Source: a virus. From it: a DNA stretch of 64,000 bases. Positions within the stretch are counted from its first letter, which is position 1, and every line of letters begins with the position of its first letter. The notes under the pieces are model-generated. The model did not search any database and was not told the origin of the DNA. It saw nothing but the letters and a program-made list of their open reading frames with translations. A program made the translations under genes and the position numbers. Positions 888 through 59,300 of this stretch are shown here, piece by piece. The stretch lies in IMG/VR virus record IMGVR_UViG_3300027704_000022, positions 1 through 64,000 of that record. One strand, 5' to 3'.

Positions 888-1699
888 GAGTGTCCAATAT
901 AGTTAAGGGTTAATCTTACAGATCCATCAGCAGAAGCGTTAAGCTGCTCAGACACTAAAGAAGCGTTTGGAACAGTCAACGTTTGTAGGGCAGTCCCGTC
1001 TCTTCCCTTTACAGAAAAAGATAGATTTTTATCAGATCGGCCTTCCTCGAAAAAACTAAATCCACTGGCCAAAAAGATATCGTCCACATCTATCTGAACG
1101 GCGGCTGTATAATCTATGGGGTTTATGTGTTTTACCTCGACAGGAGTTTCCGATCCTATGGTATAATATGGAATCTTTTTTATAGATAAAGAATAATCAA
1201 AACCCAACACTCTATTAGTTGTGCTATAATCGCATGTCGCGGTTATAGAACCTTGGCTTGGCACATCTATTGGTATAGGGAAAAATGTTCCAGATTTATT
1301 TACCCCACTTCTCATTTCGTCGTATATAACCAAAGAGGCATTAACTTTAGGGACTGACCCGACTGCACAATTAACAGAGTAAGAAGTTAGATAGCCGCTT
1401 TCGAAACCATAAGATGTATTATTATTATAATTAAAGCTAGCACTTACTACGCTAGATGATCCAGTCATCGATAAAAGAGGATCATTATAAATAAGAGATC
1501 TAGACAAAGATAAAGTCTGACTAGTAGCTCCTGCTACAGTAGTTACTCCACGAACAGAACCTAATGGTTTAGCCGTATTAGAAGAATTCTGATATCCTAT
1601 ATCTAAAGAGTTAATTCCAGAAAGCTCTTTTCTTCCTATATTTGGATTGACTCCAGATAAGAAGAAGTGAGATTCGTAATTTAGTGTTGTTCCGTACAT
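884..1699 (-). CDS. Tail-tube-like structural protein (paralogue B)
   Basis: 271 residues, rich in Ser, Thr, Asn and beta-branched residues, with no signal peptide or membrane segment. It shares motifs with the tube candidate at 12593-13750 and with the protein at 26780-27646: a central YSVNCAVGSVPKVNASL stretch matches YSVELAVGSLPTVNVTV in the former, and an LSLSRSL stretch recalls LPLSRSP. I infer a beta-sandwich tail-tube or tail-tip ring protein. The start ATG overlaps the tape measure stop (TAATG) and its own stop overlaps the next start, so translation is probably coupled. It could instead be a distal-tail (Dit-like) protein; sequence alone does not separate these. Confidence 0.55.
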   Translation of the reverse strand: MYGTTLNYESHFFLSGVNPNIGRKELSGINSLDIGYQNSSNTAKPLGSVRGVTTVAGATSQTLSLSRSLIYNDPLLSMTGSSSVVSASFNYNNNTSYGFESGYLTSYSVNCAVGSVPKVNASLVIYDEMRSGVNKSGTFFPIPIDVPSQGSITATCDYSTTNRVLGFDYSLSIKKIPYYTIGSETPVEVKHINPIDYTAAVQIDVDDIFLASGFSFFEEGRSDKNLSFSVKGRDGTALQTLTVPNASLVSEQLNASADGSVRLTLNYIGHS

Positions 1700-4600
1700 T
1701 ATGCTCTAACTTGTCTTAGTGATCCTCCTAGTCTTTTCTCGTCATCTATCACTTGTTTAACTACATCTTTTATTCTAGTCGCTAATGATGTCTGCTGGTC
1801 GTCCCCGCCACCTTGAGTGTCGGATGACCCATCAGAGTTAACGGTGATATTAATAATGGTCTCTCCAGAATTATCAGAAACAGAAATTAGCTCATCTAGT
1901 TTGCTAACTATATCTCCAGACCCTCCATCAGCTCCTGAATTTAAAGCGTTTAGACTGCCTCTCCCTATCTTCTGGGTTGCAGCGGCGTTCATAACAAACT
2001 CACCCCCAGACAACATAGAAGGAACGGTATCTACTCCAGCTGCATTAGGAATTGAGCCTCCTGTAGCGAGGTTTGGCGGCAAGGCTCCTGTCCCGAAAAT
2101 CTCCCCAGAAGTTAGACCATCAAGATTATGAAAGACTCCATTCTGAAATATCCCTACCCCAGATGATTGACCACGACCTCCATTAACTTTAATCGCGTTT
2201 GGTGGGTTAACTGCTTCCGCAAGTGGCGCTTTACCAAATTTAGTTGCAAGGCTACTAAACCCAGCAGAAGCAACAGCTGCAAAAATAGAATTTTTCAACC
2301 CTTTTTTAGCTTGCCTCTTTTCTTCTCTAGCTTGTTGTTCTTTTTGTATTTGCTGCGTAAATAATCCAAATGCATCCTTCTTGGAGTCTTGCTCTCTTTG
2401 AAACGCTGGGCTATTCCTTCTGCCAAACATAGTAAGAGCTGCACTTTGAGGTTCTAAATTAACAGATGCAGATCCTGTCCCCGATCCGAATCTATCAGAA
2501 GCTCCAGTAGTAAAAGATTGTGTAGCGAAATCAATTAAATTGCTTTTCCCTTTTATCTCTTCTTGTCCGTAAGTTCCTGGGGTAAATAAACCTCCTCTAG
2601 CCATAGCTGGAATCGACCCAGCATTCAAAGACTCCATGAAAGAAGAGCCGTATTTACTAACAGAGCTTTTCTTCATTACGAATTCACCACCAGTAAGTAA
2701 AGCAGGAACATCATCGCGGTTTCCAGAACCGCCTGTTACTTTCCCCCCAGAGGCGAATTTACCAATAACGCTATCAACAGCTCTTGTCATGTAAGCTTTA
2801 GATAAAGTCGTGAAGAAACTGGTGGCTGTTCCTATAAGTATATCGCCAAGGCTCTTTCCTTGGATTATTGCTTCGGTCATAGCATCTCCTATATTCTGGG
2901 CGAATTGAGCTGAAGCGTCTATTAATTTACCATTAAACTGATCTTCCTCGACGAGCCTTCTGAATTCTTTAAAGTCTTGATTATCTATAGCAGCGTCTCT
3001 ATCGGCTTGACTTCTTTCGTTTCTACGGTTTTTAATCCTTTCGACAGGATTTATATTCATGTTATTATCTATTTCCCTAAACTTCGCTTCGTCAGATCTT
3101 AGAATCCTTCTAATTTCTGCGGGGTCTTGTGAAGCCTTAGCTCTTTCCATTCTACTGTCTTCTGATATTTGAGCTTTTAAACGCGCAGCAGGGTCTGAGA
3201 TCCTGTCAGTATCGAATTGTCCTTGAATAGCTCCTCGTTCTAATACAGTAGCTAAATTTTCAGATAATTGAGCAGAACTCTCTTGAAAGAAACCTGCCGC
3301 TTTTAGATTAGCTTCAGCGTTTTCTATAGCAGATTTACTTTGGGCATCTAATGCGGTGCTAGATTCAATTAATCCTTTTCTAAAATTTATAAGCTCCTTT
3401 TGCTTTACCTCATCTTTCCCCTCAAGGCTAGAAATTGCTAAATCCAACGCTTTTAAAGGGCTTTCCTGACTAACCAAATCTGCGGCTGACGGTTTAAGCT
3501 CCGCTTCAGTGAGTTTATCATAATCCTTCAATTCGAGTTTATCAAGAGTCTTGGTTAAATTACCCCCTACTGAATTATCCGCTAATAATTTATCTAAATT
3601 CCCCTTTCCTATACCACCTATTTTCTCTATAATAGATTTCTTTTCATTTTGCTCTAAGTTATTTCTAGCTTTTTGAGCTTCAGCTCTAGCGTTTAACACA
3701 GAGTCATTAGCTGCTTGTTTCGTTAGACTTTCTTGCTCTAATGTAGTTTTTGCTCCTCGACCTCTATTAATTGCATTTAACTGTCTAGATTTTATCGCTT
3801 CTTCCAAAGTCTGATTTTTATTAAAAGTATTTGATTGTATATTTCCGATAGCTTTCAGATTAGAGGCTTTTCTAATCTGATTAATCTGCGCAGCTACAAC
3901 CTTAATGTCCCCAAGATGTCCTTTTTGCTTAATTAATTCTCCAGTTTTCTTTTCCTCTACAGATAAAGAGTTTATTTCTCCACGTAGTGCAGCTTGAATA
4001 CTCGTATCGCTTTCTTCTAGTAACTTATTAATTTTTAATACTAACTCTTCCCTTTCTTTAACTGTAAAGTTTTCTTTTTTAGAGGATTCGTTTATCAATT
4101 TTAAAAGTTCTTGTTCAGAATCCTTTATGAAAGTAAGCTCCTTGCTTGCTTGAAGCATTGCCCCTAAAGAATCAAGAGTTTTATTTCTCAAATTGAAATT
4201 AGCTTGGAGTATGCTTTGCTCTGTCTTTAGAGCTATCATTTCATCTTCATTGAGAGATTTTGATAATTCCGCCTTTAATATCTTCTCGTCCATTACGTCT
4301 AAAACAGTTCTATCTGCTTTAGCTAAATCGATAGCCAATTGTATTTTTTGTTTCGCGAGACCAGCTAGAACCCTATCACCTTTTGCGGCTTCATCCGTAG
4401 CGCTTTGCTCTATTGTTTTTAATGTTGCTGGGGCTTTTTCGGCTTCTTGGTTTAAAATGAGATCTTGAGCTTTTCTTTCCGTCATACCCGTCTCTGCCAT
4501 ACCTTCCCTGAATCCAGCAATACTCGGCGCTCTTTCTTTCGCCGCTCGGGCGCGTTGGAAGGGGTCACGCTCAACAAAACCTTCCTCCTTGCCTTTCTTA

Positions 4601-7600
4601 CCAAAACTTATTAGAGCTTCAAGTTCCTCTTTATTAAGTTCTTCAAAGATTTTACTTACATCTTGAGTTTGAGCTTTCATTTTAATTACCGCATCAATAA
4701 GTTTATCAAACTCTGCGTTATCTAACTTATCGATCTTAGTAATCTGAGTACTCTCAGCATCACCGAATGTCTGTACAACTTGCTTTTTGCCTCCTATGGC
4801 TGATTTTCTTATCAATTTATCTATTGCCTCTGGATCTACGCCTGTTGCGAGAGACTGATCTATAGATTCTGTTAATTTGACAACAAAAGCATCGGTTATA
4901 CTTATATCTGCAACAGTATTATCTTTCGCTACTGATCCATCTGCTTTTTTATTGAAAATATCAGCGAGTATGTTATCTCTTTGTTTTTCAAGAGCCGCTT
5001 TATCTACTTCTCCTATACTATCCAATCTTATAGCCGCTTTATCTGCCGCATCAGCTAATTTTCTTAGCGCCATATTATTGGTGTCTGTTATTCCTGTGGC
5101 ATCTTCATAAAGCCTATTTAAACCTTCATATAGGGCAGCGCCTATACCTATAGCCGCACCAATCTGGCCTATACTTTCTATAACTTTTCCCTTTACTCCT
5201 TCCATAGACTCACCAAAATCTTTTATAGCGCTACCCGCAAAAACAGCTGTTGTAATTGAACTACCCATAGTCGTTAGTCTATTGGCGACTCGGCCAAAAC
5301 CCTCTTCTGCGTCAGAAGTAGCTCCAGCTAAAGCGGAAAATGCGATCTGAGTTGCGAATATACCGCCAAGCATATCTCTAGAGCCTTTCGTGGTTTTAGC
5401 CTCTACATTTAATCGCTCTTTTGCTACATTATTTACTTTGTTTCTAACCTCTCCGTTGGTTTTTATTCCTTGGGTAAATTTCTTTAATGATTTTTCTGCA
5501 CCGTCTTGAGTGATTGTGCCTTCTTTTATTTCTTTGTTAAGTGAATCAACAAGGCTATTCAATTTCCCTAATGATTTTGCTGCTGCTGTGCTGGCATTTT
5601 TTATGCCTATATCACCCATACCTATATTAGACTTAGCGAAGTTAGGTATAGCGCCAGTAGGCTCATCCCTAGTATTAGTGACGGCTAACCCCATTGGGTT
5701 ACCAGCGTTTCTAAGCTTCGGGCTTTGGTTTACGCGAATTTGATTTATTGGTAGACCAGCATCTTGTTCTCTCCCTATAGCATCTTGAAGAGGATTAGCG
5801 AAATTGGGTATATAACCTCTAGAAGCATTTGTTATGTCAACAAACCCACTAAACACACCGTCATTTTTTCTGAACGTTGGCCGCTGCCCTTTAGGTGTAT
5901 TTTTTATAAATGTCTCACGATCCTGTTCTCTTATAACATGAGTACCCTTTGTAGTAATACCAAGATACCGTTTCGCATCGTATTTAGAGAGTTTTTTACC
6001 TTTTAATTTGGAGGTTTGAGCATCTTGCTTTTTGCCTAACACCCTATGTATTTTCGCGGCGGCAGAGGCTACATTCTTGGGGTTTAGTCGGCCTTTCACT
6101 TCTCCAAACTTAGGTTTGGTTTGTATGTTAAATAAACCCAATAATTTGTCCTGACCTGTCAGATTTAAATCAAAATTAGAATTCTCAGCTTGATCAGCAT
6201 AATTCTTAAATTCCTTATCCGTAAGCATAGTAGCCAATGCTAGCTCATATATACTTCCAGCAAACCCAGCCACAGCGCCACTATTGACCTTAGCTTTGAT
6301 CTTTTGGTTATGCACGGGTTTAGGCATCCCGCCTGATAATTCTTGTGATTTTTTTATACCCTGATTTATAGAATAATCTTCTAATTCTTTTATATACTCA
6401 TCAACTGTTTTGCCTTCATGCTTATCATCTAAACCGTACGTGGGGACTCTTATAGGTAAAGCTCCAGGTCGTTTTGTGACATTATACTTATTCTCTTCTG
6501 GGTGATAATATGCTAGGTTTTCAGGTTCACTTTTCCCTGTTTGACCATATAGCAATACATGACGACCTTGCGAGTTTAGAACTTTTTGTTCTTTAGCGAA
6601 ATTAGGTATATAACCTCCAGCAGCCCCAATCTTCCTAGCTCCTGCTGGCATTCCCATAGAGGAAACCATATCTTGATTAAATATAGCAGATCCACCACTT
6701 CCAGCATAATTAGGCACTACGTATTCGCTACTGTTAGCGACCATAGTCCCTTTTTGTCCACCTCCAAAATTGAAGTTGGGTATAGTAACAGGTTTCGCGG
6801 AAGTTGGAGCGCCCCCTACGCCCTTGCTGATATCAGAGCTTTCTGATCCATAACCAGCAATAGCATTGTAGTTAGGGATAAACCCTCCAGCGGCACGACC
6901 TTTACCTCCTCTACGTGAAACTGGTCTAGTGCCAGCCCTAACTCCAGGAGCTATTGTGCTAGCTATACCCTGCATTTCCTGCATCACACCTAATTGCTCC
7001 CTTATAGCTGTGGTGAAAAACTTAGTTTGAGCGACTTTTTTCTTTTCTGCGCTAAGAGAGCTATTTTCTATAGCTAAGATACTTTCTTGAATTCCTTTGT
7101 TGCCTAACAAAGTAGAAGCGATCTGTCCCTGAAGAGTAGCTTGTTCTTTTGCTGCTCTATTTAAACCAAAAAATGTTTTTAAAGATCCAAGCCCAAATCT
7201 AGCAAGATCGACACCCAGTTTTATTATAATAGCTCCAAAGATAGCTAACCCAGGTCCACTAATAACAGCGCCTATACCTTTTACTATGCCTCTTGCAAAA
7301 TCTCCACCTGCGCCTTCTCCATCTAATATCCCTTTGACATCTTCGACTAAAGTGTTAAAGAACCCTAATAGATTTTGAAGATTATCTGTTACACCTATCC
7401 TGCCTAGAGTATCAGCTAATTCTTTTAAATTCAGTGTGGCTACATTTATAGCGGCAGATAAAGCTTCATTTAAAGCTACATTCCGTTCATAAGCTTCTTT
7501 TGTCGCATTTTGAGAAACTTTAGTTAAATCTATTGCTATAGAGGTCTTAGAATTATAATCATCTAGTAAAGCTAAGAATGGGGCAATCTGGAATTTCCCC

Positions 7601-8535
7601 ACTAGCCCTTCCGCTATTTGAAGCCGTTTAGCTTCAGGTAATTCGCCTAAAACTTTAGACAAATTTTGAATTAATTTAGTAGCCCCTAAGACTTTGCCGC
7701 TAGTATCGGTGACTTGGACCCCTAAATTCTGCATTGTTTCTAACTTCTCTATACTCTGAATACGAGTGAAGATAGTTTTGAATGAGTTGCCAATAACAGA
7801 TCCACCTCGCGCAGTTTTAACTTGCACGGCTGTAATCACACCGACTAATTCATCAAATGATACACCAGCAAGGTTAGCAACTGATCCTGCGCGTTTAATA
7901 CCTTCGATCAAATCTCTCTCAGAAACAGCTGCCGCCACAGCTGCTGCTGACAATTTATTAAGTATTACGCTACTTGAGAGTCCAGACTTATTAAAAGAGT
8001 TTATAGCTGCAGTCAAACCTGAAACAGCTTCAGTAGCTCCCAGACCAGACACGCGGGTTAATATCATAGAATCAGCTAATCTTTTTTGTACTTCAGTTGC
8101 ATCTAAACCTTGACGGCTTAATTCTAAAGCGGCAGTAGCTACTGTATTAAACGATTGCTCAGTATTCCTAGCAACATTAAAAATAGTTTTACTAAAAGCC
8201 TCTAATTCTTTTGCATTAGTCCCCAAAATAGAATTGATACTTATAAGAGACTTTTCTACTTCTATAGTAGTCAAAACTAACTCTTTGAAGCCTCTAGTCA
8301 CAGCGGCGAGTATACCAACAGAAGCTCCAAATGCCAAAACACGGGCATTAGCAGCCTCCATAGACTTAGTAAATTGATCGGCTTTACCAGTAATCCTACC
8401 TAAAGGCTGAGATAAGCCCTCAATACTTTTGGCGTTGCCGCCCATATTGATCTTAAGATTTCTGCCTGCTTTTTTAGCAGCGGACTGAATGCTCGCTTCT
8501 AATCCTGTTTGAACTGTTGGTATTTTTATTGGCAT
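1699..8535 (-). CDS. Tape measure protein with nuclease-like insert
   Basis: 2278 residues, the longest gene here. Residues about 70-300 form a TP901-type tape measure core (EVEKSLISINSIL through ISFDELVGVITAVQVKTARGG). Hydrophobic segments lie near 415-450. Seven IPNF-type motifs occur at about residues 550, 584, 606, 641, 907, 960 and 2159, and two DDVPALLTGGEFVM/DTVPSMLSGGEFVM repeats lie near the C-terminus, typical of phage tape measures. Residues 1000-2000 are mostly charged helix. Between IPNF copies four and five, about 646-905, is a non-helical insert with E764, D789 and E812-V-K814, the spacing of a PD-(D/E)XK nuclease core. The protein sets tail length and is ejected on infection. 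AAAGG lies upstream of the ATG. The tape measure call is firm; the nuclease reading of the insert is inference. Confidence 0.95.
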   Translation of the reverse strand: MPIKIPTVQTGLEASIQSAAKKAGRNLKINMGGNAKSIEGLSQPLGRITGKADQFTKSMEAANARVLAFGASVGILAAVTRGFKELVLTTIEVEKSLISINSILGTNAKELEAFSKTIFNVARNTEQSFNTVATAALELSRQGLDATEVQKRLADSMILTRVSGLGATEAVSGLTAAINSFNKSGLSSSVILNKLSAAAVAAAVSERDLIEGIKRAGSVANLAGVSFDELVGVITAVQVKTARGGSVIGNSFKTIFTRIQSIEKLETMQNLGVQVTDTSGKVLGATKLIQNLSKVLGELPEAKRLQIAEGLVGKFQIAPFLALLDDYNSKTSIAIDLTKVSQNATKEAYERNVALNEALSAAINVATLNLKELADTLGRIGVTDNLQNLLGFFNTLVEDVKGILDGEGAGGDFARGIVKGIGAVISGPGLAIFGAIIIKLGVDLARFGLGSLKTFFGLNRAAKEQATLQGQIASTLLGNKGIQESILAIENSSLSAEKKKVAQTKFFTTAIREQLGVMQEMQGIASTIAPGVRAGTRPVSRRGGKGRAAGGFIPNYNAIAGYGSESSDISKGVGGAPTSAKPVTIPNFNFGGGQKGTMVANSSEYVVPNYAGSGGSAIFNQDMVSSMGMPAGARKIGAAGGYIPNFAKEQKVLNSQGRHVLLYGQTGKSEPENLAYYHPEENKYNVTKRPGALPIRVPTYGLDDKHEGKTVDEYIKELEDYSINQGIKKSQELSGGMPKPVHNQKIKAKVNSGAVAGFAGSIYELALATMLTDKEFKNYADQAENSNFDLNLTGQDKLLGLFNIQTKPKFGEVKGRLNPKNVASAAAKIHRVLGKKQDAQTSKLKGKKLSKYDAKRYLGITTKGTHVIREQDRETFIKNTPKGQRPTFRKNDGVFSGFVDITNASRGYIPNFANPLQDAIGREQDAGLPINQIRVNQSPKLRNAGNPMGLAVTNTRDEPTGAIPNFAKSNIGMGDIGIKNASTAAAKSLGKLNSLVDSLNKEIKEGTITQDGAEKSLKKFTQGIKTNGEVRNKVNNVAKERLNVEAKTTKGSRDMLGGIFATQIAFSALAGATSDAEEGFGRVANRLTTMGSSITTAVFAGSAIKDFGESMEGVKGKVIESIGQIGAAIGIGAALYEGLNRLYEDATGITDTNNMALRKLADAADKAAIRLDSIGEVDKAALEKQRDNILADIFNKKADGSVAKDNTVADISITDAFVVKLTESIDQSLATGVDPEAIDKLIRKSAIGGKKQVVQTFGDAESTQITKIDKLDNAEFDKLIDAVIKMKAQTQDVSKIFEELNKEELEALISFGKKGKEEGFVERDPFQRARAAKERAPSIAGFREGMAETGMTERKAQDLILNQEAEKAPATLKTIEQSATDEAAKGDRVLAGLAKQKIQLAIDLAKADRTVLDVMDEKILKAELSKSLNEDEMIALKTEQSILQANFNLRNKTLDSLGAMLQASKELTFIKDSEQELLKLINESSKKENFTVKEREELVLKINKLLEESDTSIQAALRGEINSLSVEEKKTGELIKQKGHLGDIKVVAAQINQIRKASNLKAIGNIQSNTFNKNQTLEEAIKSRQLNAINRGRGAKTTLEQESLTKQAANDSVLNARAEAQKARNNLEQNEKKSIIEKIGGIGKGNLDKLLADNSVGGNLTKTLDKLELKDYDKLTEAELKPSAADLVSQESPLKALDLAISSLEGKDEVKQKELINFRKGLIESSTALDAQSKSAIENAEANLKAAGFFQESSAQLSENLATVLERGAIQGQFDTDRISDPAARLKAQISEDSRMERAKASQDPAEIRRILRSDEAKFREIDNNMNINPVERIKNRRNERSQADRDAAIDNQDFKEFRRLVEEDQFNGKLIDASAQFAQNIGDAMTEAIIQGKSLGDILIGTATSFFTTLSKAYMTRAVDSVIGKFASGGKVTGGSGNRDDVPALLTGGEFVMKKSSVSKYGSSFMESLNAGSIPAMARGGLFTPGTYGQEEIKGKSNLIDFATQSFTTGASDRFGSGTGSASVNLEPQSAALTMFGRRNSPAFQREQDSKKDAFGLFTQQIQKEQQAREEKRQAKKGLKNSIFAAVASAGFSSLATKFGKAPLAEAVNPPNAIKVNGGRGQSSGVGIFQNGVFHNLDGLTSGEIFGTGALPPNLATGGSIPNAAGVDTVPSMLSGGEFVMNAAATQKIGRGSLNALNSGADGGSGDIVSKLDELISVSDNSGETIINITVNSDGSSDTQGGGDDQQTSLATRIKDVVKQVIDDEKRLGGSLRQVRA

Positions 8536-10641: not shown

Positions 10642-11109
10642 ATGGCAGGTTTTTTATCAAGCGATCAAATAACAAAAGTTCAGAATTTAGCTGACACTTT
10701 GCATACTACATTTGCACGGACCATAACGGTTTATAAGAATGCTAAGAAAACCCTTATAGCTTCTAGTGGTTCATGGAACTCTTTATATGGGAGAACAAAC
10801 ACTGGTTCTGACAGCTCTGTAGCATATACTACAGAATCCCAAACGTTTGAAGCCCGTGTCTATTATGATGATATGGACACTTCATATTTTACAGATGATG
10901 GCCCAGCAGATCAAGCTGGGACTCAAAACAAAGTGGTGGTATCTAATGGCACAGTTAGGATAGTAGTTAAAGTCGATGGCTACAACTACCTTAGTGAAGC
11001 GCGGAGAGTAGAGTTTGATGGAACTATGTTTATAATAGAAAGCGATGGTACGCCTAGCGGTTTTACTTCTAACCAGTTCTACACTTTCGTTCTAAGCCCA
11101 ACAGAATAA
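10642..11109 (+). CDS. Neck protein, probable head-closure or adaptor
   Basis: 155 residues, soluble, beta-rich (TFEARVYYDD, TVRIVVKVDG, RRVEFDGTMFIIES). It is the first of four tightly packed plus-strand genes leading to the tail tube gene, the usual order head closure, neck, tail completion, tail tube in siphoviruses. The RVEFDGTMFIIESDGTPSG stretch resembles the beta-barrel of head-closure proteins. The ATG has no Shine-Dalgarno, but an AGTGTAA box sits 8 nt upstream, so the mRNA may be nearly leaderless. The role is from position and fold-like pattern only. Confidence 0.5.
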   Translation: MAGFLSSDQITKVQNLADTLHTTFARTITVYKNAKKTLIASSGSWNSLYGRTNTGSDSSVAYTTESQTFEARVYYDDMDTSYFTDDGPADQAGTQNKVVVSNGTVRIVVKVDGYNYLSEARRVEFDGTMFIIESDGTPSGFTSNQFYTFVLSPTE

Positions 11110-11694
11110 ATGGCTAACTTACCTATAGATGTCCAAAATGCTTTAAAAAGGCAAGCCCCCAAAGCTCTAAGAAGAGACTTTGAAAAAGAGGCGCGTAAGA
11201 GGTTTAAGAAGCTTAAGCAAGAAATGATTAAAGACTTCCTAACTGACTCTGTGACTTTAGAGATTTTGGAGGGTGCTGGAGCAACAAATATTAGTGGAAC
11301 TTTGGGCGGGGTCAGTAATTTATTCGCATTTATCGGGTTTGATTCTGGGGATCAACCAATAACGCCCATCTTGCAATTATTAGAAGGAACCCAAATAACT
11401 TATAAACAAGAAATCAAACAAAGAGGTATAGGGGTAGAGTTCGAAGTATCTTTACCTACCGCACAAGATATATTCGCCATTACACCTCTACCTTGGGCTG
11501 CTGGGCGAAGCTGGTCAGAAGGTATAGAAAGAGGACTCTCTGGTTTAGGTTACTTATTAAGGAAAAATAAAGGAAGATCGGGAGCTGCTATACAAAGCCG
11601 TGTAAATAAAGTAAGAAGCGGTAAATTTCAGAACAGACCTTATATATCTGCTTTGATTAAAAAATACAAAAAACTATTTGAAGACTTGAAATGA
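11110..11694 (+). CDS. Probable tail completion or neck protein
   Basis: 194 residues, strongly basic at both ends (KRQAPKALRRDFEKEARKRFKKLKQ, KNKGRSG, KKYKKLFEDLK). The basic helical N-terminus and the C-terminal RPYISALIKKYKK segment resemble the HK97 gp10-like tail-completion family, where the C-terminus is commonly an NRPYI..A motif. It begins directly after the previous stop and overlaps the next ATG by 4 nt. I infer that it joins head-tail connector and tail terminator. Moderate confidence; no catalytic motif is expected or seen. Confidence 0.5.
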   Translation: MANLPIDVQNALKRQAPKALRRDFEKEARKRFKKLKQEMIKDFLTDSVTLEILEGAGATNISGTLGGVSNLFAFIGFDSGDQPITPILQLLEGTQITYKQEIKQRGIGVEFEVSLPTAQDIFAITPLPWAAGRSWSEGIERGLSGLGYLLRKNKGRSGAAIQSRVNKVRSGKFQNRPYISALIKKYKKLFEDLK

Positions 11695-12542
11695 TTGAGC
11701 AATTCCAACACAAACTAACCTCATCTTTCTTTTTGTGGTTTGACAATTTCCTACTTAAAAAAGGAGAAGCTTATAGCAATAAGACTGGAGAGTTATTTAA
11801 TTATGCTGACCCCAGATTAGATTCTAGATATGTAGCTTATGGAAGCCCTTATAAACAATGGGTCACAGATTCATCAATCTCTGGAGCTGTTATACCTACG
11901 GGGGTTTCAGTGGTAGGCGCGGGGACATCAGGGAGAGATGACGGAGTAGTCTTCGATTTCGAGAACGGTCGAGCCTTATTCTCTGGCAGTGATACAAGCA
12001 TGACGGTCACAGGGGAATTCGCGGTAAAAGATTTTAGTGTTTATCTTACTAACGACACAGAAGACGACCTAATCGTAGAAAACAAATATACTGTTAATTC
12101 AAGGATTCCATCTGGCCCATTAACTTATATAGAGCCTTATGATGACGTAGTCCCTGCTATTTTCCTATCTATTTCCCAAGCGGAGAATAGTGCTTTCGCT
12201 TTAGGTGGTATGCAAGAAACAAAAGTCCAAGCTAAAGCTGTTATCCTCGCAGAGGATACATATCAATTAGATGGAGTCATGTCTATTTTTATGGATTCCG
12301 TCAATGAAGTCATCGCAGCTATACCAATGTCGGGTTACCCAATTACAGAATTAGGAGATCTAAAAGATGGGAACTTCAATTACACTGGTCTAGCCAACGA
12401 TTATGGAGGGGAAACTAAATTCTGCGTAGAAAAAGTTAAGACCTCGAAACTCACAGATAGGACTAGAAACGTCCTCGCAAATGAACTTTATGTCGGTTTC
12501 GTGGATTTTGACATAGAACAATATCGATATCGCTTCCAATAA
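11691..12542 (+). CDS. Structural neck/tail protein, possible tail terminator
   Basis: 283 residues, acidic, no membrane segment. The N-terminus (FQHKLTSSFFLWFDNFLLKKGEAY) is followed by beta-rich sequence with many Asp and Gly. It starts in an ATGA overlap with the preceding gene and ends 50 bp before the tail tube gene. That slot usually holds the tail terminator, but at 283 residues it is longer than typical terminators (about 130-200), so it may carry an extra domain or be another structural protein. No specific family recognised. Confidence 0.45.
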   Translation: MIEQFQHKLTSSFFLWFDNFLLKKGEAYSNKTGELFNYADPRLDSRYVAYGSPYKQWVTDSSISGAVIPTGVSVVGAGTSGRDDGVVFDFENGRALFSGSDTSMTVTGEFAVKDFSVYLTNDTEDDLIVENKYTVNSRIPSGPLTYIEPYDDVVPAIFLSISQAENSAFALGGMQETKVQAKAVILAEDTYQLDGVMSIFMDSVNEVIAAIPMSGYPITELGDLKDGNFNYTGLANDYGGETKFCVEKVKTSKLTDRTRNVLANELYVGFVDFDIEQYRYRFQ

Positions 12543-12592
12543 ATTTCATATTTTAATTTTAAAACTGTAAACAAAATAAAGAATCTTTAATT

Positions 12593-13750
12593 ATGGCAAG
12601 AAACAGAGTAATTTACCAATCAGAAGGCTTATATGTTAGTGAAAACGCTAGTCTTACAGGCGCAGATGACCACGAACAGTTAAACCGCCTTCAAAGTGCG
12701 AACTATAGCTTCACTATTAATCGTCAAGATGTTAACCAATTTGGTGATTTAGCAAGGATTGATTCCTTAGTGCTAGAACCCCCCACTGTCAGCCTTGACT
12801 TCAGTTATTATCTTACAGACGGTTTTAATGAAAGATCTTTAGGGTTTTTCGTTGAAACGACTGGCTCAGGGATGAATAGAGGGATTAGTGAAGGTGTTGG
12901 TAGCAAAGGCAATTTCGCCTCTGGACACTTGACTTCTAGTTCTGGAGTGAACTTCTATATAGTAACTTCTCCAGATGGTGTTGATTTAAATCTAGAGCCA
13001 TCAGTCGCTCTTGACCTTAACGATAGAGCCATCGGCGTAGGTAATTGCTATGTAAGTGATTATAGTGTGGAGTTGGCGGTCGGTTCTTTACCTACTGTGA
13101 ATGTCACGGTCGAAGGAGCTAATATGAACTCCGCTACATTTGATTCTGCTAAGGCGATACCAAGCCCAGCAGTAGAACAGACTGCTGGGACGATCTATAA
13201 CCACAAAGTAAAACTGCCAAACCCAACTAAAGATGGAGGTATCACTGGCTCTTTAGGCTCAGGAACTATTACGGCTTTACGTCCAGGAGATGTGACTCTC
13301 ACTCTAAACAATTTAAATGGATTCTCTCTAGTAGCGCTTACTGGTGATGACTCAGCGCATGTCCAAAGCGCTTCAATCTCGTTACCTCTCTCAAGATCTC
13401 CTATTGATAGACTTGGTAGCCGTTTCCCGTTCGCTAGAGAAGTAGACTTCCCAGTGACAGCAACGATGAACATCAGCGCAATTGTCGCAGATTCACAAGC
13501 AGCTAACTTAGCAAATCTATTAAACTCTGGAGTCCAAGAAGCAAGTATTATGATTAAAGATACAGCTGGAACGGATGCTATCCAATACAAGATGAAAGGT
13601 TTAAAAATAGATAGCCAATCTTTCTCTTCAAGCATCGGATCTAACAAGACTGTCGATCTTACATTCTCGACTCAAATTGGCGGACCTAATGATGTGCTTA
13701 ATGGAGTATTCATGAGCGGAATAAATGGAGCGGTCACAGTCTTTGCATAA
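12593..13750 (+). CDS. Major tail (tube) protein candidate
   Basis: 385 residues, nearly all predicted beta strand, repeating Ser/Thr/Gly/Asn. It contains QDVNQFGDLARIDSL and YSVELAVGSLPTVNVTV near residue 155, and SFSSSIGSNKTVDLTF near the C-terminus, the pattern of siphovirus tail tube proteins. It is followed only by a tiny gene and a strong terminator. Two shorter relatives lie at 884-1699 and 26780-27646; this one, in the neck-to-tail position, is most likely the abundant tube subunit. The gap before it (12543-12592) is AT-rich without an obvious Shine-Dalgarno. Confidence 0.7.
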   Translation: MARNRVIYQSEGLYVSENASLTGADDHEQLNRLQSANYSFTINRQDVNQFGDLARIDSLVLEPPTVSLDFSYYLTDGFNERSLGFFVETTGSGMNRGISEGVGSKGNFASGHLTSSSGVNFYIVTSPDGVDLNLEPSVALDLNDRAIGVGNCYVSDYSVELAVGSLPTVNVTVEGANMNSATFDSAKAIPSPAVEQTAGTIYNHKVKLPNPTKDGGITGSLGSGTITALRPGDVTLTLNNLNGFSLVALTGDDSAHVQSASISLPLSRSPIDRLGSRFPFAREVDFPVTATMNISAIVADSQAANLANLLNSGVQEASIMIKDTAGTDAIQYKMKGLKIDSQSFSSSIGSNKTVDLTFSTQIGGPNDVLNGVFMSGINGAVTVFA

Positions 13751-13751
13751 T

Positions 13752-13916
13752 ATGTCTGATCAAAAAGAAAATCAAGAAAGCAAATTTTTCTCTCCAAAAT
13801 GGGAGCCTAAATCTGAGCAGCCCAAAGAAGAGAAGACTAAATCTTCAGGCGGCTATCAAGGACGTAGGCGAAATAAAATTTGCAACGATGGTAAAGACTG
13901 GAAAGATTTCCACTAA
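13752..13916 (+). CDS. Small basic hydrophilic protein
   Basis: 54 residues, extremely hydrophilic, Lys/Glu/Ser/Gln rich, with GGYQGRRRNK near residue 33. An in-frame ATG at 13725 also exists but lies inside the tail tube gene; ATG 13752, one base after that gene's stop, gives a compact coupled start. It ends just before a strong terminator, so it is cotranscribed with the tail tube. Function unknown; disordered and possibly RNA- or protein-binding. Confidence 0.6.
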   Translation: MSDQKENQESKFFSPKWEPKSEQPKEEKTKSSGGYQGRRRNKICNDGKDWKDFH

Positions 13917-21120: not shown

Positions 21121-22986
21121 TCAAGAAATGAACATTGGTACAAAAGTGTTTTGCCTATCTGATATGTCATCTGACTCCATATCATAGAATACGTTCATCA
21201 TCCAATTACCTAAGACCAAGGCTGAATAAGAATCTTTACGAGCTTTGTTAGCTCCGCTTTGCCTTCTTAAGTTACGCGGTAGATCAAAACTTTGAGTTCC
21301 TTGAGAAGATGTCGTAATTTGAACCATAGCGCATTGGACTTTAATAAGATCCATCATGTCTTTTTGGTGTTCGACGAAATCAATCATCCTCGCACCTTTT
21401 GCTCCTTTTTCATCAGTATCATTCTTTAAGAACTTCAACTCTTCTATAGGGACTCTAGATTTTCTTTGATTGTTATAATCATCATTCATAGCGGCTCCCG
21501 CAAAAAATATACGCTTATGGTCAAAAGAAGATTGTAAAGACTCGTTAGCTAGCCTAATCCAAGACGAAGTAGGCTTTCTAAGGAAAACGAATTTTCTTTC
21601 TGATTTATTGTATTGATTTTTAAGCCTACTCAAGTTTCTATCGTAATCTTTAGATTTGTCTAAATCAGCTTCAATTACTCCTAGATTTAAATTTTTACTT
21701 TTGAATATCTCACTCTCATTACAGGAGCTGATGAATTGAACGCCTCCATTATAATCCCCTACTACAGCTGATATATTAAAGTGGGTAAGAATGTAAGCCA
21801 TATACTTAATATGTGTTTTTAAGTTGGCTCCCGATAAAGCATAACTATGCACTATTGTCCCCTTCTTAGATTCTCTGTTGATTTTGATTAACAGCATAGC
21901 GAAATCGTCAGAACTCTCACTCTCAGACCAAGACGGGTCAAAAGATAAGATGTATTCGTCTTTACGGTTTCCTACGACTTCAACAGATTGCCCTTCTCCA
22001 TCTGGTATGGTGCAAGCTGCCATTTTACTCACCTTAAAGTATCCAGAGCTATCATCGGTGAAGATTGCTCCAAATTCCCTATTGAACTGGGCATCGCTCA
22101 TAGTAGAGCGCGATTGATTAATCAAGTTCTGATCATATAGTTGCTGTGGGGCGCAATCGTAACTAAAATGCATAATTGTCCTGTGCGCTCCATCCTGTTT
22201 ATTCTCATTTAGAATCAAAGCCTCATATTGTTGATATATTTTGTAGAGGTATTCGAATTTATAAGATGCGGATGATAAACCAATAATTTTGTTGTTTGGC
22301 CATCGCTTACGATCTTCTTTTTTCATTTTACCCTGCTCGATCATCTTGGTTTCTAAATCATAAACCTCTTGCCTCTCAGTGGGGTTTTCAACTACAGACA
22401 GGAAAGGCATCAACACCTCATTATAAATTTTTTCAGGCATTAACAATAATTCATCAACGATTATTCTTTGGAATCGGAAACCTCGCAATTTTTCACCATC
22501 ACCCAAGGGTAAAGCTCTGATGCTACTCCTGCCTATCTCCATTACCCATTCATCATTCATTTTCGATGTGCGGGTAATACATTGAGCAAAAAATTCTGCT
22601 TTAGGGCTTTTAGCGATATCTTCTATCTTTTTGAAAATCATTTTAGACTGTCGAAATGACTTAGAGATGATGCCTATCTGTACACCCTGATTTAAAATAG
22701 CGTCTAATAGCGCGAAAATGCCCGTAGAGAAGCTTTTGGACATTCCACGACTCCAGATCCCCAAAAAGTAATCGGACTCCATCATGGACTTAATAGCCAT
22801 ATGTTGGAAAGGGAATAATTTTACCCCTGTAAACAATTCACAAGCAAAAGAAGGATTTTCTCTTAGAAATTTATAAAGAAGAATCTTAGCTTCTGTTTCT
22901 TCTAAATACCCCTCTTTTTCGAGAATGAGTTTGTTTATATCCTTGTACTCTCTGTGGAGTTTCTGTTTTCCTGTTTCCCAAGCCAT
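21121..22986 (-). CDS. terL: Terminase large subunit
   Basis: 621 residues. Walker A-like loop at 76-87 (GIWSRGMSKSFS), Walker B at 175-179 (IIVDE), and an RNase H-like nuclease domain with D350 (ILSFDPSWS) and D411 (VVGDYNGG). Packages DNA into the prohead through the portal, and cuts concatemers. The Walker A has Arg-Gly-Met-Ser-Lys-Ser, a variant also seen in other terminases. The start lies 101 bp inside the upstream nuclease gene in another frame; the next Met is at residue 63, too close to the ATPase motif, so the long overlap is probably real. Confidence 0.95.
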   Translation of the reverse strand: MAWETGKQKLHREYKDINKLILEKEGYLEETEAKILLYKFLRENPSFACELFTGVKLFPFQHMAIKSMMESDYFLGIWSRGMSKSFSTGIFALLDAILNQGVQIGIISKSFRQSKMIFKKIEDIAKSPKAEFFAQCITRTSKMNDEWVMEIGRSSIRALPLGDGEKLRGFRFQRIIVDELLLMPEKIYNEVLMPFLSVVENPTERQEVYDLETKMIEQGKMKKEDRKRWPNNKIIGLSSASYKFEYLYKIYQQYEALILNENKQDGAHRTIMHFSYDCAPQQLYDQNLINQSRSTMSDAQFNREFGAIFTDDSSGYFKVSKMAACTIPDGEGQSVEVVGNRKDEYILSFDPSWSESESSDDFAMLLIKINRESKKGTIVHSYALSGANLKTHIKYMAYILTHFNISAVVGDYNGGVQFISSCNESEIFKSKNLNLGVIEADLDKSKDYDRNLSRLKNQYNKSERKFVFLRKPTSSWIRLANESLQSSFDHKRIFFAGAAMNDDYNNQRKSRVPIEELKFLKNDTDEKGAKGARMIDFVEHQKDMMDLIKVQCAMVQITTSSQGTQSFDLPRNLRRQSGANKARKDSYSALVLGNWMMNVFYDMESDDISDRQNTFVPMFIS

Positions 22987-53214: not shown

Positions 53215-55356
53215 ATGGCGGAAGAAGGAAAAAACAAAGTAGCACGTAGTTTATTAGACCTACAGCCGACCGCATTATTAGAACTGTTTAGAGTTTACCC
53301 AGATAGGGTTAATAATCCAACCGTATGGTTAGGGTTTCATGGAGGAGCTGTCTATTCTGAATCTATCCAGTGGCAAGGTTTTAAATATTTGCCTTTAGCT
53401 ATGGAGAGCGAAGGGTTTGATATATTAGGAGATGGCAAATTAGCTAGACCCAAAATCCGTGTAGCCAATCAAAATAATATCATTACCCAACTCCTTCAGG
53501 TACATAAAGATTTTAAAAATGCCAGCTTTGTTAGAAAAAGAGTATCCGTAAAATTTATTGATGATGAAAACTTCGAGGGGGGTAATCCTTTTGGTGAAGC
53601 TGACCCTAAAGCAGAATTGACAGATGAAACTTGGTTGATGGGCAGGAAAACCCAAGAGTCTAGATTGTTCGTAGAATTCGAACTTAATTCTCCGTTAGAT
53701 CTTGAGGGGTTCAGCGTCAATTCTCGTAGCGTTGTTTCTAAATTCTGTTATTGGCAATACAGAGGAGAGGGGTGCAGGTATCAAGGTCTTCCTATAGAGA
53801 GAAGTGATGGCGAAAACTTCCAAGACCTCAGTGGAAGTGGGGTAGCGCCTAATTATACCCCAGTAGGTGGCGCAGGTTCATTTTTTAATAGCTCAGATTC
53901 TATATGGGCTGCGTCAAAGCCGTATAGTAAAGGCAATATAGTAATAACACAAAGTCCTACCATTTTCTTAGCTAACCCTGATCCCAATATACAGGGAGAG
54001 CCATTAAAAACAGCATACGTCTGCGTCCAAGATAATTCAGGACAATTGCCAGAAGACAACCCCAGCTTCTGGCAAAGAGATGGGTGTACTAAAAAACTTT
54101 CCGCATGTAAAAAAAGATTTAATGAGATCGATTTAGTAGGATTTGTCGAAGGACAAAATATCAATAGCGGTTTTAACGCTATCCATATTTCTGGCATGAC
54201 AGCTTCAGACGAAGCCGATAAATTAGTACAACCCAATGGTCGTTCAAATTTAATACCACTTCATACAGGACTATTCCATACTAACGCCTTAGAATTAACA
54301 GGTCAGCTAACTGGACAATTCACCATCATGGGTTGGGTTAATATCAATGATATTAGCCCAGCAGGAGCAGGAATATTAAGCACTTCAGCGAGAGACGGGT
54401 TAAACTGGCCTAATAATCAATTTTTGAATGTTAATGCTGATGTTACGCCTGTTGATCGTAATTGGAATAAGACTAAAGGCACTAAGACTAATCAGATCTC
54501 AGCTAATTATATGGGTTATCAGATAGATGATGATAGCGAAAGTCATAATACAAATGCCTATAGAACTATAAGTCTACACGAAGAACAAAACGCTGGAGAT
54601 TCTAGAGAATGGATGCAATACATAATAACAAATAGCACGGGAGATCCCGCTATTAATGGAATAGGAGAAGACGCAAACACATTGATTAAGTTTTATGTAA
54701 ACGGAGTAAATCAATCAACCAGCACAGTGACTTTAGGGGGGGGTAAAATTAATGAAAATCTAGGTAATTTTGCTAGCTTAACACAAAGAAAAGCTATGAC
54801 TTGGGGGCAGAACAGCGAAAAAGCCTTACCTCAAACTTTTATGTTAGGTGCTGTTGAATATTACCCAGGAAAAAAAGGATACAAGGCCCCCACTACATAC
54901 CCCTCCACGACCTCAATGAATGGAGCGCTTGGGCCTTGGGCTTTATGGAATAGACCTTTGAATGATGAAGAGATAAGCTACCTTTACAAAAGGATACCAA
55001 GTCCAAATAATGTTTCTAATAATTTAGATTTCGCACCGCGAAATTATAATGAATGCACTGGACGCTTTGGGACACTAACTGGTAGTGGTATCGGATCACT
55101 TTCTTACGGAGCGGACAGCTTAGTCGCTTGGTGGGATGCTTCAACTGGATTTATCCCTTCTACAAGTACTATCGGGATGTTAGATATCCACACAGGAGAT
55201 ATTCATTTGACGGGCAGTGGAGAATTTAAAGGCATTCTCCAAGATTATAAAGAAGCCCCATTAACTCTTATTCAAAACCCAACGCCGACATTCCCTAATT
55301 TTGGAGGTTTTCCTGGGACCGATGGATTCAGCTATGCAAGAAGTACACAAATGTAA
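53215..55356 (+). CDS. Tail tip protein, lambda L-like with LamG-like insert
   Basis: 713 residues. Residues about 1-190 follow lambda L: LLELFRVYPDRVNNPTVWLGFHGG and SVKFIDDENFEGGNPFG, then FCYWQYRGEGCRYQG and a later DGCTKKLSACKKRF, four cysteines where L carries an iron-sulfur cluster. Residues about 345-610 form a LamG/concanavalin-like sandwich (TGLFHTNALELTGQLTGQFTIMGWVNIND to GALGPWALWNRPLNDEEISYLYKR). That insert may bind sugars. First of a lambda-order L-K-I-J block. Confidence 0.8.
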   Translation: MAEEGKNKVARSLLDLQPTALLELFRVYPDRVNNPTVWLGFHGGAVYSESIQWQGFKYLPLAMESEGFDILGDGKLARPKIRVANQNNIITQLLQVHKDFKNASFVRKRVSVKFIDDENFEGGNPFGEADPKAELTDETWLMGRKTQESRLFVEFELNSPLDLEGFSVNSRSVVSKFCYWQYRGEGCRYQGLPIERSDGENFQDLSGSGVAPNYTPVGGAGSFFNSSDSIWAASKPYSKGNIVITQSPTIFLANPDPNIQGEPLKTAYVCVQDNSGQLPEDNPSFWQRDGCTKKLSACKKRFNEIDLVGFVEGQNINSGFNAIHISGMTASDEADKLVQPNGRSNLIPLHTGLFHTNALELTGQLTGQFTIMGWVNINDISPAGAGILSTSARDGLNWPNNQFLNVNADVTPVDRNWNKTKGTKTNQISANYMGYQIDDDSESHNTNAYRTISLHEEQNAGDSREWMQYIITNSTGDPAINGIGEDANTLIKFYVNGVNQSTSTVTLGGGKINENLGNFASLTQRKAMTWGQNSEKALPQTFMLGAVEYYPGKKGYKAPTTYPSTTSMNGALGPWALWNRPLNDEEISYLYKRIPSPNNVSNNLDFAPRNYNECTGRFGTLTGSGIGSLSYGADSLVAWWDASTGFIPSTSTIGMLDIHTGDIHLTGSGEFKGILQDYKEAPLTLIQNPTPTFPNFGGFPGTDGFSYARSTQM

Positions 55357-55741
55357 AGGGGAGGTTACGGCCCTACATAAAATAAAAGAAATGTCTCATA
55401 AACATTTTAAACAGGAAATCTGTGGATTTTTAGGTTATGATCATGAGAAAAAAGAATTTATAATTCAAAAAGAGGATAATATCGCGACAGACCCTCGATC
55501 ACATTTCTTAATAAACCCTCTAAGCTATTTACTATTTAAAGATTCTTATATTATGATAGCGGTTTTCCATAGTCATATCGTAGGGGATGAAACAGAATCT
55601 GAATTTGATGTCAAAATGTCAGACAATTGTTGCCAGCCATTTTTGATATATAGCCTTAACACAAAAAAAATAAATATTTATACGCCCGAAACTATAGAAT
55701 CAGATGTAAATATACTGGAAAGGATAAAGGCTGTAAAATGA
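55322..55741 (+). CDS. Tail tip assembly protein, lambda K-like JAMM peptidase
   Basis: 139 residues from ATG 55322 (ATG 55334 possible). JAMM/MPN+ signature: E32 (QEICGFLG), then H83-x-H85-x7-S93-x2-D96, all zinc-site residues present. Lambda K has this domain plus an NlpC/P60 domain; here only the JAMM is present. It probably processes a tail tip protein. Starts inside the preceding gene, with GGAGG about 14 nt before. Confidence 0.8.
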   Translation: MDSAMQEVHKCKGEVTALHKIKEMSHKHFKQEICGFLGYDHEKKEFIIQKEDNIATDPRSHFLINPLSYLLFKDSYIMIAVFHSHIVGDETESEFDVKMSDNCCQPFLIYSLNTKKINIYTPETIESDVNILERIKAVK

Positions 55742-56343
55742 CGATAGTAAATATACATGGAATTCTAGCAAGGGAGTTTGGAAACTCATTCTTATTAAGC
55801 CTACCTAACCCGAAAGATGTTTTAGAGGCTATAGATTGTAATAGGGGAGGTTTTTTGCAAAGATTAGTGGAACTACAAAGAGAAGGTTTTTGTTATGACC
55901 TTATAATAAATAAACGAAGAATTACTCATGGCCCAGATATGGATAACATATCGGACGCAGCCACGATAGATTTAGTTCCAGCTATAACAGGTAGTGGCGG
56001 CACTGAGATTCTAGCTATTATTAAATTTTTAGGATCAGGCAGTTTTTTTGCTAATGTAGCTAATGCCATCATTTTTGCAGCAATTACTTATGCATTAACA
56101 CCTAAACCAGAAAACGAAGCTCTAGAAATATCATCGAAAGCCTCAAAAAGCTCTTTAATTTTTAGTAATACCGCTAACTTAGCAGACCAAGGATCGCCAG
56201 TCCCCATAGGTTATGGGCGCTTAATAGTCGGCTCTCAAGTCATACAAGCCACTATAAAATCGTTCCCTCAACATCAAGCCCCCTCAAAAGCATTACAAGG
56301 TGACAGCAGTAACCCAGTCTTCATAGGAAATAGAACATCATGA
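55738..56343 (+). CDS. Tail assembly protein, lambda I-like
   Basis: 201 residues. NIHGILAREFGNSFLLSLPNPKDVLEAIDCNRGGF matches the ubiquitin-like N-terminus of lambda I; the middle has a hydrophobic segment SGSFFANVANAIIFAAITYALTP; the end IGYGRLIVGSQVIQATI matches the I C-terminus. It acts with J during tip assembly. ATGA overlap with both neighbours. Confidence 0.85.
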   Translation: MTIVNIHGILAREFGNSFLLSLPNPKDVLEAIDCNRGGFLQRLVELQREGFCYDLIINKRRITHGPDMDNISDAATIDLVPAITGSGGTEILAIIKFLGSGSFFANVANAIIFAAITYALTPKPENEALEISSKASKSSLIFSNTANLADQGSPVPIGYGRLIVGSQVIQATIKSFPQHQAPSKALQGDSSNPVFIGNRTS

Positions 56344-59300
56344 AACATATTCTTAAAAAGCTAAGTATTGCAGGAGCAGGAGGTAAAGGGGGTAAACCTA
56401 AGCCCCCTATTTATAAACCCCCCGTTATGGGGGAACTACAATATGGAGCCTCTCACAGTTACGCAGAGACATTAGATTTATTGAGCGATGGACCCATCGA
56501 AGGTATTGTCAACTCTCATGGAGAACTGGTTGATGGTTTAAATATATTGCAAGGCATTTATTTAGATAATACGCCCGTGGCTGTGACTAACCAATCTGAA
56601 ACAAAGTCTGATCAGCTAACGCCCCTAGAAACCGAAACTTTTAATTCTCTTAATTTAGAATTATCTAGCGGAGAAGGAGTCGCGTATTGTCGTGAATTTT
56701 TTCAAGAATTAGGAGAGGCCACCAATAGAAGTAGCGGCGGGAAAATAACATCTTTAAAATCTAGCACGGCTGGAGGATCAGATATTTTCGAGGCTGAATC
56801 ATGGCCTGATGTCGGAATGATGTTTTTAAGGACGAATACGAGGAGCGTAAACAGCCTCGCTTTCCTTAATCGGGAGCAAGCCTTACCGAAAAGGATAGAA
56901 AATTATGCTCTTTTTATCAGAGGTTTTATTAAATATAGAGGACTAGATGGAGCGCAAACATTTCCTTGGTATCTCAATGGAGATCTTCAAACGGTATATA
57001 ATGATAACAATGCAGCTTACAGAAACGACGCTCAACCGAAAGGGACAGTCCAAAACGGCAGCTTAATATGGGGAGATAGTACGCTCAGCGCATCTAAATT
57101 CTTATTTGCTTTTAACCCTGTTCTATCTTTTTCCAGATTGATCATTACACCACCTAATATAACGGGACGGGGTGGATCTATACGGCACGGTAACACAGAA
57201 TCTTCTAAAATATTCGCTAATAATACAGAAGTACTTAATAAGTTAATACTCCAAGATCTCAATCTTATTCTAAATTTGTATAATACAAATAATATAGTTG
57301 GAGGTAACTCATCACAAAGAGAACTAGCGAGCAGAGCTTTGAGTAGCATAGGGTGGACAGAAGGAAGCGTAAACGACCTTTTGTTTAATCATCTAGATAC
57401 GGAGTTAGGAGGAGTAGTTATATGTAAGGTCACTTCTTCAAATTCTAATTTAGAAGACAAACAAATACTAGATGGGAACGACTTAATGCAGATGCAGACT
57501 TTACCTCATGGGTCTACCCGTGGCGCAAATCTTATAGCCTACATGCAAGCCAATGGGATGATAGTCACTGATGTCACTTGCCCTGAAGTCTCTACTGATG
57601 GAGTTTTAACTGGAGTTATGAACGGGTTCTTGATTTTTCAATTTCCTATAGAAAATAAAACTTCAGATAATTTTGCTTACGATAATAAGAGCAATGGCAA
57701 CGTAGTATTTGGAAAGAATCACACATTCCAAATACCTTCGGAAATTATAACGGCATTAAAAGATTTAAATTCTTTTAAATACACAAAAAAGATCGGAAAC
57801 GGACCAAACTCTACGACACTATCTTTAGATCCTACAATTAATCCTATTCACACGAATAGCTTAAAATTTAATTATAGTAACGTCTTAGCTGAAATTCGCA
57901 AAGGCGAAGAAAATCAATCTCCTTTTAATAATTTTAAAAAGATTTTTATTGATCATCCATATGGCAAGGAGTTATTCGGACCTTTTGGGACGGCTAAATC
58001 TTTAGGAGACCCGAATACTTCAGAGGAACAAGAAAATGCACCGCAACGCATAACGCCTAATAGCTCCATGTTGTCAAGAGACAACGTAGTCGGGCAATTA
58101 GCAAATAACTTTAATACTTTATTGGATAATGGTTTACCTCCTTTTGAAGGGAGCGATGATGAAAGACTAGATGCTAGTAATAAGTCTAGAAATTATTCTT
58201 CTTGGGCAGAAAGTTCCCTAGCTAATTTCGATGAAGAAGCTATCTCAGTCATACATACGGTCTATAACCCTAATGTAGAAGAAGCTTTTATAACTTTAGA
58301 CGTTTCTTCTCTAAAAGATACTCTTATTAAAGAGGTCAAAAACGTAAGAGACGGTAGGTCAATCGATGATAAAGATTTGAGTATAGGCACTAGTTTCCCT
58401 ACCGTATTAAACATAAGGGTAGAAACTGGTAGGGATGGCTCTGAAGGGGAAATACCACATAAACAATATAACTTTAGAATAGTAGCTTTAATAGAAGGAG
58501 GTACTTTAATCGACATTGGCAACCCCGATTATAAAGGGGCTAGCGGTAGAGAGTTTGTCGTCGAGTTAAATGGAGCAGATGATAATTTAAATTATCTTTC
58601 TCGACCTTTCGAGTTGCCTCCTAATGAGACTCAAAAAAATGACTCTCTTACAGAAAGTGGAGAACAAGCTATACAAGCTGGCGTTATCAACAAAACGCAG
58701 ACACAAAACAGGTATATAAAAATAACAAAACTCTCTTATGAAAGTAATTCTGTTATGTTGGATAAAATCGTCTCGGTTAATAAAGTCACAGAAATTATAA
58801 ATGTTAATTTACCCTACCCATTCTCTGCTATAGTAGGAACTAAATTAGATTCTAGATCTTTTGGAAGCATCCCCAAAAGAACTTATGATTGCAAACTTAA
58901 AAAAGTAAAAATCCCCAGTAATTATTTCCCCACTGATAAAGGTATAGATAAAAGATATTATGATACCGAAGCGGAATTCGATAATGCTAGCCAAAAAAAT
59001 AAATTAATTTATAAAGGAGATTGGGATGGCTCATTCCATACCAGCCTACAATGGACAGATAATCCTGCATGGATATTGTATGATCTATTGACTAATGTCA
59101 GATATGGTATGGGTTCGCATATTAATATTAATCAAATTAATAAATGGCAACTATATAAAATAGGTAGATTTTGTGACAATGTAGATAACGAAGGTTATTT
59201 CTTAGGAGTCACAGACGGTAGAGGAGGAAAAGAACCCCGTTTTTCTTGTAATATAATCTTTGATCAAGGACAGAAAATATTTGACGCTATAAACACTATC

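Follow-up and report, generated by a model that had tools for sequence, protein, structure and literature searches.

Predicted PD-(D/E)XK-like and other exchangeable enzyme-like domains between IPNF motifs in the tape measure proteins of a group of tailed phages

This study focused on a tape measure protein (TMP) that carries a separate, fast-evolving, non-coiled-coil domain with a conserved nuclease-type set of residues, which is the strongest result of the analysis. The domain lies between two copies of a short IPNF motif, and sequence comparison with related TMPs indicates that inserts at such sites are swapped while their flanks stay conserved. Phages with IPNF-bounded cargo form a large, mostly uncultured group of tailed phages. 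The explanation favoured here, with a probability of about 0.6, is that in this group the TMPs carry polymorphic enzyme cargo, which is set free when the genome is injected. Phages meet host defences before countermeasures can be expressed, and the TMP, a virion protein ejected by siphophages in any case, would offer an efficient means of carrying pre-made effectors.

The window, by which is meant the whole stretch of DNA analysed, comprises bases 1-64000 of a 66,790-base IMG/VR record. Its longest ORF lies within a tail gene cluster and specifies a protein that matches PhageMin_Tail and several PHROG tape measure families. The record also carries genes for a terminase, a minor tail protein and a J-like central fibre, so the virus is probably of the siphophage type.

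1699..8535, minus strand: tape measure protein (TMP), 2,278 aa (Pfam PhageMin_Tail, 4.9e-25; PHROGs TMPs, to 3.7e-42)
7597..8178, minus strand: PhageMin_Tail domain, aa 120-313 (Pfam, 4.9e-25)
21121-22986, minus strand: terminase
53215-55356, plus strand: minor tail protein
56340-60998, plus strand: J-like central fibre

Structural-type genes are found on both strands, with those at 10642-13916 and 53215-60998 on the plus strand and the TMP and terminase genes on the minus strand; the minor tail and J-like genes lie about 45 kb from the latter two. Among named phages, matches to the window TMP are limited to about its first 540 aa, at 24-28% identity, and IPNF motifs are absent from four named-phage TMPs that share its N-terminal domain.

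A reading of the sequence alone had proposed a PD-(D/E)XK-like domain between IPNF motifs, bounded by GGYIPNFA and RGYIPNFA, and had singled out residues E764, D789, E812 and K814. The insert (aa 648-905, about 258 aa) and both boundary motifs were confirmed, and the four residues are located as named. Starts of IPN[FY]/VPNY motifs occur in the window TMP at aa 553, 585, 607, 643, 909 and 963, and within the roughly 90 aa before the insert there are three copies that enclose no cargo. The features of the site, all on the minus strand, are as follows.

6868..6888, minus strand: GGFIPNY motif, aa 550-556 (motif listing)
6706..6789, minus strand: VTIPNF ... SSEYVVPNY pair, aa 583-610, the conserved N-side block of the cargo site
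6595..6618, minus strand: GGYIPNFA, aa 640-647, left boundary of the insert
5821..6594, minus strand: cargo domain, aa 648-905, PD-(D/E)XK-like (74-member alignment, conservation ranks, AF2 model)
6244-6246, minus strand: codon of E764
6169-6171, minus strand: codon of D789
6100-6102, minus strand: codon of E812
6094-6096, minus strand: codon of K814
6052-6054, minus strand: codon of K828
5797..5820, minus strand: RGYIPNFA, aa 906-913, right boundary of the insert
5635..5796, minus strand: conserved block of about 54 aa on the C-side of the cargo site, NPLQDAIGRE...NPMGLAVTNTRDEPTGAIPNFA, aa 914-967 (57-100% identity across relatives)

The insert family was drawn from 160 motif-bounded segments of at least 95 aa among the matches listed, which fell into 52 BLAST clusters. 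The largest holds 74 segments, the window's insert included, and the nuclease-like domain is the commonest cargo among these matches. One segment, L038_1311, aligned poorly and was excluded from later family alignments. Median pairwise identity within the family is 18% after redundancy removal. Across the 74 members, D789 is invariant and G760 equally conserved (74/74), the position of E764 holds E or D in 73, that of E812 holds D or E in all, K814 is conserved in 72, and the position of K828 is K or Q throughout. The order and spacing of E, D, (D/E)xK and K/Q is that of PD-(D/E)XK enzymes. The four residues named in advance occupy conservation ranks 1-4 among the 63 D/E/K residues of the insert, for which the chance is 1 in C(63,4), or about 1.7e-6. 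Outside the main cluster, the strict pattern G..[F/Y]E...D...[DE]xK was present in 37 of 131 segments compared to 8.5 in shuffles, although the 37 include some family members that came to light only in the second survey, described below.

Because the family diverges so fast, a search with a single sequence returns almost nothing: the insert alone, used as a protein query against IMG/VR, matched only one 100% copy, and the family was reached through the motif scan instead. Neither the insert nor two other family members matched any named phage in INPHARED, and DNA searches with L034 and L071 gave no match. In Pfam, PHROGs, PADLOC and PDB sequence searches no member of the family was recognised.

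Structure prediction with AlphaFold (AF2) gave confident models both for the window domain (pLDDT 92, pTM 0.84, from a 63-row alignment) and for a second family member, L016 (pLDDT 87, pTM 0.82). In the former, E764 lies in a helix, D789 directly precedes a short strand, E812 and K814 sit on a predicted strand (aa 810-814), and K828 is in the helix that follows. The order of predicted elements is compatible with an alpha-beta-beta-beta-alpha-beta core, while Foldseek found no significant match for either model in PDB or BFVD. Comparison of the family by hhalign with YraN and Mrr was not significant, using alignments of these two built from genomes of one bacterial family, with which the controls were not significant either. 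The proposal of a nuclease-like domain is therefore upheld in its conserved PD-(D/E)XK-type residues and lacks a matching fold, and the predicted structures are of good quality but have no relative in either database. Since neither Foldseek nor hhalign gave a significant match, the insert is described as PD-(D/E)XK-like, by its active-site residue set, and is not filed as a member of that superfamily. What had been observed in the sequence was thus confirmed and its interpretation partly supported; fold, activity, delivery and target are the weakest points, all being predictions.

The bounding motif has the consensus A-[AS]-x-G-[YF]-[IV]-P-N-F-A, and its occurrence exceeds chance: [IV]PNF is found 492 times in 112 related ORFs, which were selected in part by the motif itself, whereas the median for permuted tetrapeptides is 1. 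The expectation that IPNF-bounded inserts would be present in other TMPs proved correct. A back-translated GYIPNFA scan of viral contigs detected the motif in at least 119 stretches; most of the matches listed fall in TMP-like ORFs of very large size, each with 2-9 motifs, in which the motif stands at almost every domain boundary and the bounded segments measure from about 95 to more than 400 aa, some being far longer. A second survey used TMP aa 91-500 as query, a region chosen to avoid motif bias, and recovered 33 loci, some of them near-duplicates of one another or of the window. The motif is present in all 27 loci that continue past its position, and the six without it all end before or near that point. 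In 257 Gb of bacterial and archaeal genomes, a slightly longer motif pattern had only five matches, four of which are phage-like TMP ORFs in MAGs (two from Flavobacteriaceae and one each from Verrucomicrobiales and Woesebacteria). The fifth, in an FtsK-like protein of Micromonospora, was dismissed as a chance match.

Codon identity between motif copies of the same gene is just slightly above expectation (757 versus 677, counted over non-independent pairs), and for this reason the motif seems to be maintained mainly as protein. DNA-level recombination at the motif was considered and rejected on the same figures. By eye, the motif looks like the TMP's own C-terminal element of the GEFV...GSIPAMARGG type, which in the window runs from aa 1950 onwards (GGEFVM...LNAGSIPAMARGG), and it has the appearance of a TMP-derived structural or docking element, reused as a domain boundary, rather than of a cleavage site.

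The cleanest case of exchange is the pair L133 and L134, in which sequence is conserved on both sides of the cargo: identity is 82% on the N-side, 91% in the C-side block and 85% over the next 400 aa, but 24% in the cargo. Similar contrasts are seen between L048 and L052 (N-side 93%, cargo 25%), L021 and L058 (flank 87%, cargo 18%), and L016 and L079 (flank 84%, cargo 32%). Beyond the C-side block the sequence often diverges too. In many of these TMPs the last cargo is succeeded by the block itself, in the form PLQDAIxRE...NPxGLAVTNTRDEPTG, whose identity stays at 57-100% while the cargo varies.

The picture is broader than the sequence-only reading had proposed, with inserts that are exchanged and that include other enzyme-like families. 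Pfam recognised a staphylococcal nuclease (SNase) domain in a segment of L099 (1.9e-9) and a GNAT domain in one of L054 (7.2e-5, above the cut-off), with weaker GNAT matches in L049 and L159. A P-loop family of 15 segments, from the matches listed, has a PDB profile match to a phosphate-loop protein (8.1e-4). In one segment family D-x-D-x-T, T, K and D are invariant, a pattern known from HAD phosphatases, with no match in PDB. The segments L101:678-1334 (minus strand) and L150:11451-12098 (plus strand) are 56% identical and share invariant R, STS and E-x-E residues like those of R-S-E ADP-ribosyltransferases (ARTs); neither Pfam nor PDB gave a match for the segments searched. Many of these identities are weak or based on motifs only, and should be taken as candidate assignments.

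Some TMPs carry several such domains. In L019, L034 and L115, P-loop, PD-(D/E)XK-like and HAD-phosphatase-like domains occur together in single TMPs, between IPNF motifs, a combination that recalls polynucleotide kinase-phosphatase sets. A Woesebacteria MAG contig (L127:1-7455, plus strand) encodes a 2,485-aa ORF with IPNF motifs, where a P-loop, a TPPHKGH nucleotidyltransferase-like motif and a GNAT-like stretch can be discerned by eye, with no match in Pfam. An IPNF-bounded segment of L159 (10605-11186, plus strand) includes an HExxH motif (AHESSHRA), and could be a metallopeptidase. The by-eye calls of a protein-kinase-like domain in L005 and L053, a NadM-like domain in L127 and a zincin in L159 fell below Pfam significance and were kept as leads only.

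Hydrophobic stretches flank the cargo site of the window TMP, as follows.

7222..7278, minus strand: upstream hydrophobic segment, aa 420-438, putative transmembrane (Kyte-Doolittle 2.04)
5128..5373, minus strand: downstream hydrophobic segments, aa 1055-1073 and 1118-1136 (Kyte-Doolittle 1.38 and 1.42)

All 48 relatives out of 48 have a stretch with a Kyte-Doolittle (KD) value of at least 1.6 in the region 100-200 aa upstream of the cargo block, and its distance from the block is nearly constant (161-181 aa). Downstream, a KD peak of at least 1.3 is present in 88% of 43 relatives, compared to 7% of 40 for a control region in the tail of the protein; in the cargo region itself the figure is 29%, and only 2% exceed 1.6. 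With hydrophobic stretches on both sides, the cargo would lie in a loop between putative membrane segments, as judged from hydropathy. In other phages the TMP is reported to be ejected and, as the genome enters, to associate with the inner membrane (PMC13190303; PMC11126660).

Taken together, it is hypothesized that the TMP has a fixed site, with one hydrophobic segment about 160-180 aa upstream and others about 90-160 aa downstream, that would accept a single exchangeable cargo domain or several, with G[YF][IV]PNF[A] at the borders of each, the window's cargo being one member of a fast-evolving family of predicted PD-(D/E)XK-like phosphodiesterases. By analogy with other siphophages, the TMP would be packed in the tail tube and ejected on infection, its hydrophobic segments would enter the host inner membrane, and the loop between them could bring the cargo to the membrane or the cytoplasm. 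There the presumed enzyme may act on nucleic acid, whether host DNA or RNA or the nucleic acid or nucleotide of a defence system, within the first minutes and ahead of phage gene expression. In our estimate there is an even chance that the TMPs of this group form a polymorphic platform for effector delivery, in which a dedicated site delimited by IPNF would receive enzyme cassettes that are exchangeable and arranged in series (an undescribed PD-(D/E)XK-like family and P-loop, HAD-phosphatase-like, GNAT, SNase and ART-like domains). These would act in the host as the genome enters, for example to disarm defences or repair damage ahead of all phage gene expression. A point against the carrier reading is that the tail lumen has to accommodate folded domains of 200-400 aa from several copies of the TMP, unless these domains unfold there.

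Other explanations need to be weighed. In line with the cleavage that the sequence-only reading suggested, the TMP could be a polyprotein, with the IPNF motifs as protease sites that free the cargo as effectors in the virion or the cell, as might be expected from a motif of strong consensus (G-[YF]-[IV]-P-N-F-A) that recurs at nearly every domain boundary. Cleavage at the motif gained no support here and is improbable, given the cargo-free motif copies upstream of the insert, the likeness of the motif to the C-terminal element, and the finding of no protease among the few neighbouring genes checked. We regard it as similarly doubtful that the inserts are diversity decoys or structural spacers, their variation being selected by receptors in the host inner membrane and by defences that sense TMPs, SNIPE among them, with any catalysis vestigial. 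SNIPE does bind TMPs, and changes in the TMP give escape or alter dependence on ManYZ (PMC13190303). Divergence of the inserts also far outpaces that of the N-terminal side and the adjoining block, but it is the active-site residues that are the most conserved positions, and several enzyme-like families with no relation to one another are found repeatedly at sites of this kind.

Two further possibilities are very unlikely. Homing endonucleases of the PD-(D/E)XK type exist, and cassette-like exchange at conserved flanks would suit a homing endonuclease or intein-like element in the TMP gene. The insert, however, is always in frame as a protein domain, an empty site was found in none of the loci that extend far enough, non-nuclease cargos occupy the same kind of site, and the codon identity of motif copies is barely raised. 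Alternatively, the target of the enzyme might be the phage's own DNA end, during tail assembly or ejection of the genome, and not the host, since the leading DNA end is contacted by the TMP during ejection and the commonest cargo is nuclease-like; rapid exchange and the GNAT-, ART- and HAD-like cargos are a better fit to a role in conflict.

If the carrier reading is true, repeated G[YF][IV]PNFA in a TMP would be a simple signature giving access to a large store of still undescribed enzymes in phages from the environment, and the injection by phages of things besides DNA would become directly testable. No report of IPNF-bounded cargo in phage TMPs was found in the literature searched, subscription papers and preprints lying outside it. 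PD-(D/E)XK phosphodiesterases such as Mrr, YraN and the RecB type resemble the insert in how E, D, (D/E)xK and K/Q are ordered and placed, but the insert differs in having no detectable fold or profile match to known members. Polyvalent proteins, which occur in phages and conjugative elements (Iyer et al. 2017, cited in PMC7824862), are described as large multi-domain proteins thought to be injected together with DNA, and carry ART, GNAT and other enzyme domains. Several enzyme-like domains per TMP are seen in relatives of the window, in a protein that may be injected. Compared with the polyvalent proteins as outlined there, the carrier in the present case is the TMP itself, which has its own boundary motif and a site reserved for cargo, an arrangement for which the literature searched gave no report, and Pfam matched no polyvalent hallmark domain (MuF, ArdC and similar) in the window TMP.

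The closest precedents are Tme and Sle1, TMP-related effectors of contractile injection systems. Tme, from Streptomyces davawensis, is a tapemeasure-related effector with endonuclease activity (PMC11126660). It shares with the window protein a relationship to TMPs, predicted transmembrane helices and a nuclease domain, active in Tme and predicted to be nuclease-like here. Tme belongs to a bacterial injection system and has a C-terminal EndA-like nuclease (DRGH and H-N-N motifs) and DUF4157, whereas the window TMP is a phage protein with an internal, IPNF-bounded PD-(D/E)XK-like cargo, and a Pfam search of this TMP found no DUF4157. Sle1 represents actinobacterial contractile-injection effectors with reconfigurable functional domains (PMC13277306). 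In the accessible text of that report, these too are TMP-related carriers with interchangeable functional domains, but the cargo is C-terminal, the nanomachines are bacterial, and IPNF motifs or serial multi-domain arrays are not mentioned. Should the carrier reading hold, phage TMPs would be linked with the TMP-derived effectors of bacterial contractile injection systems.
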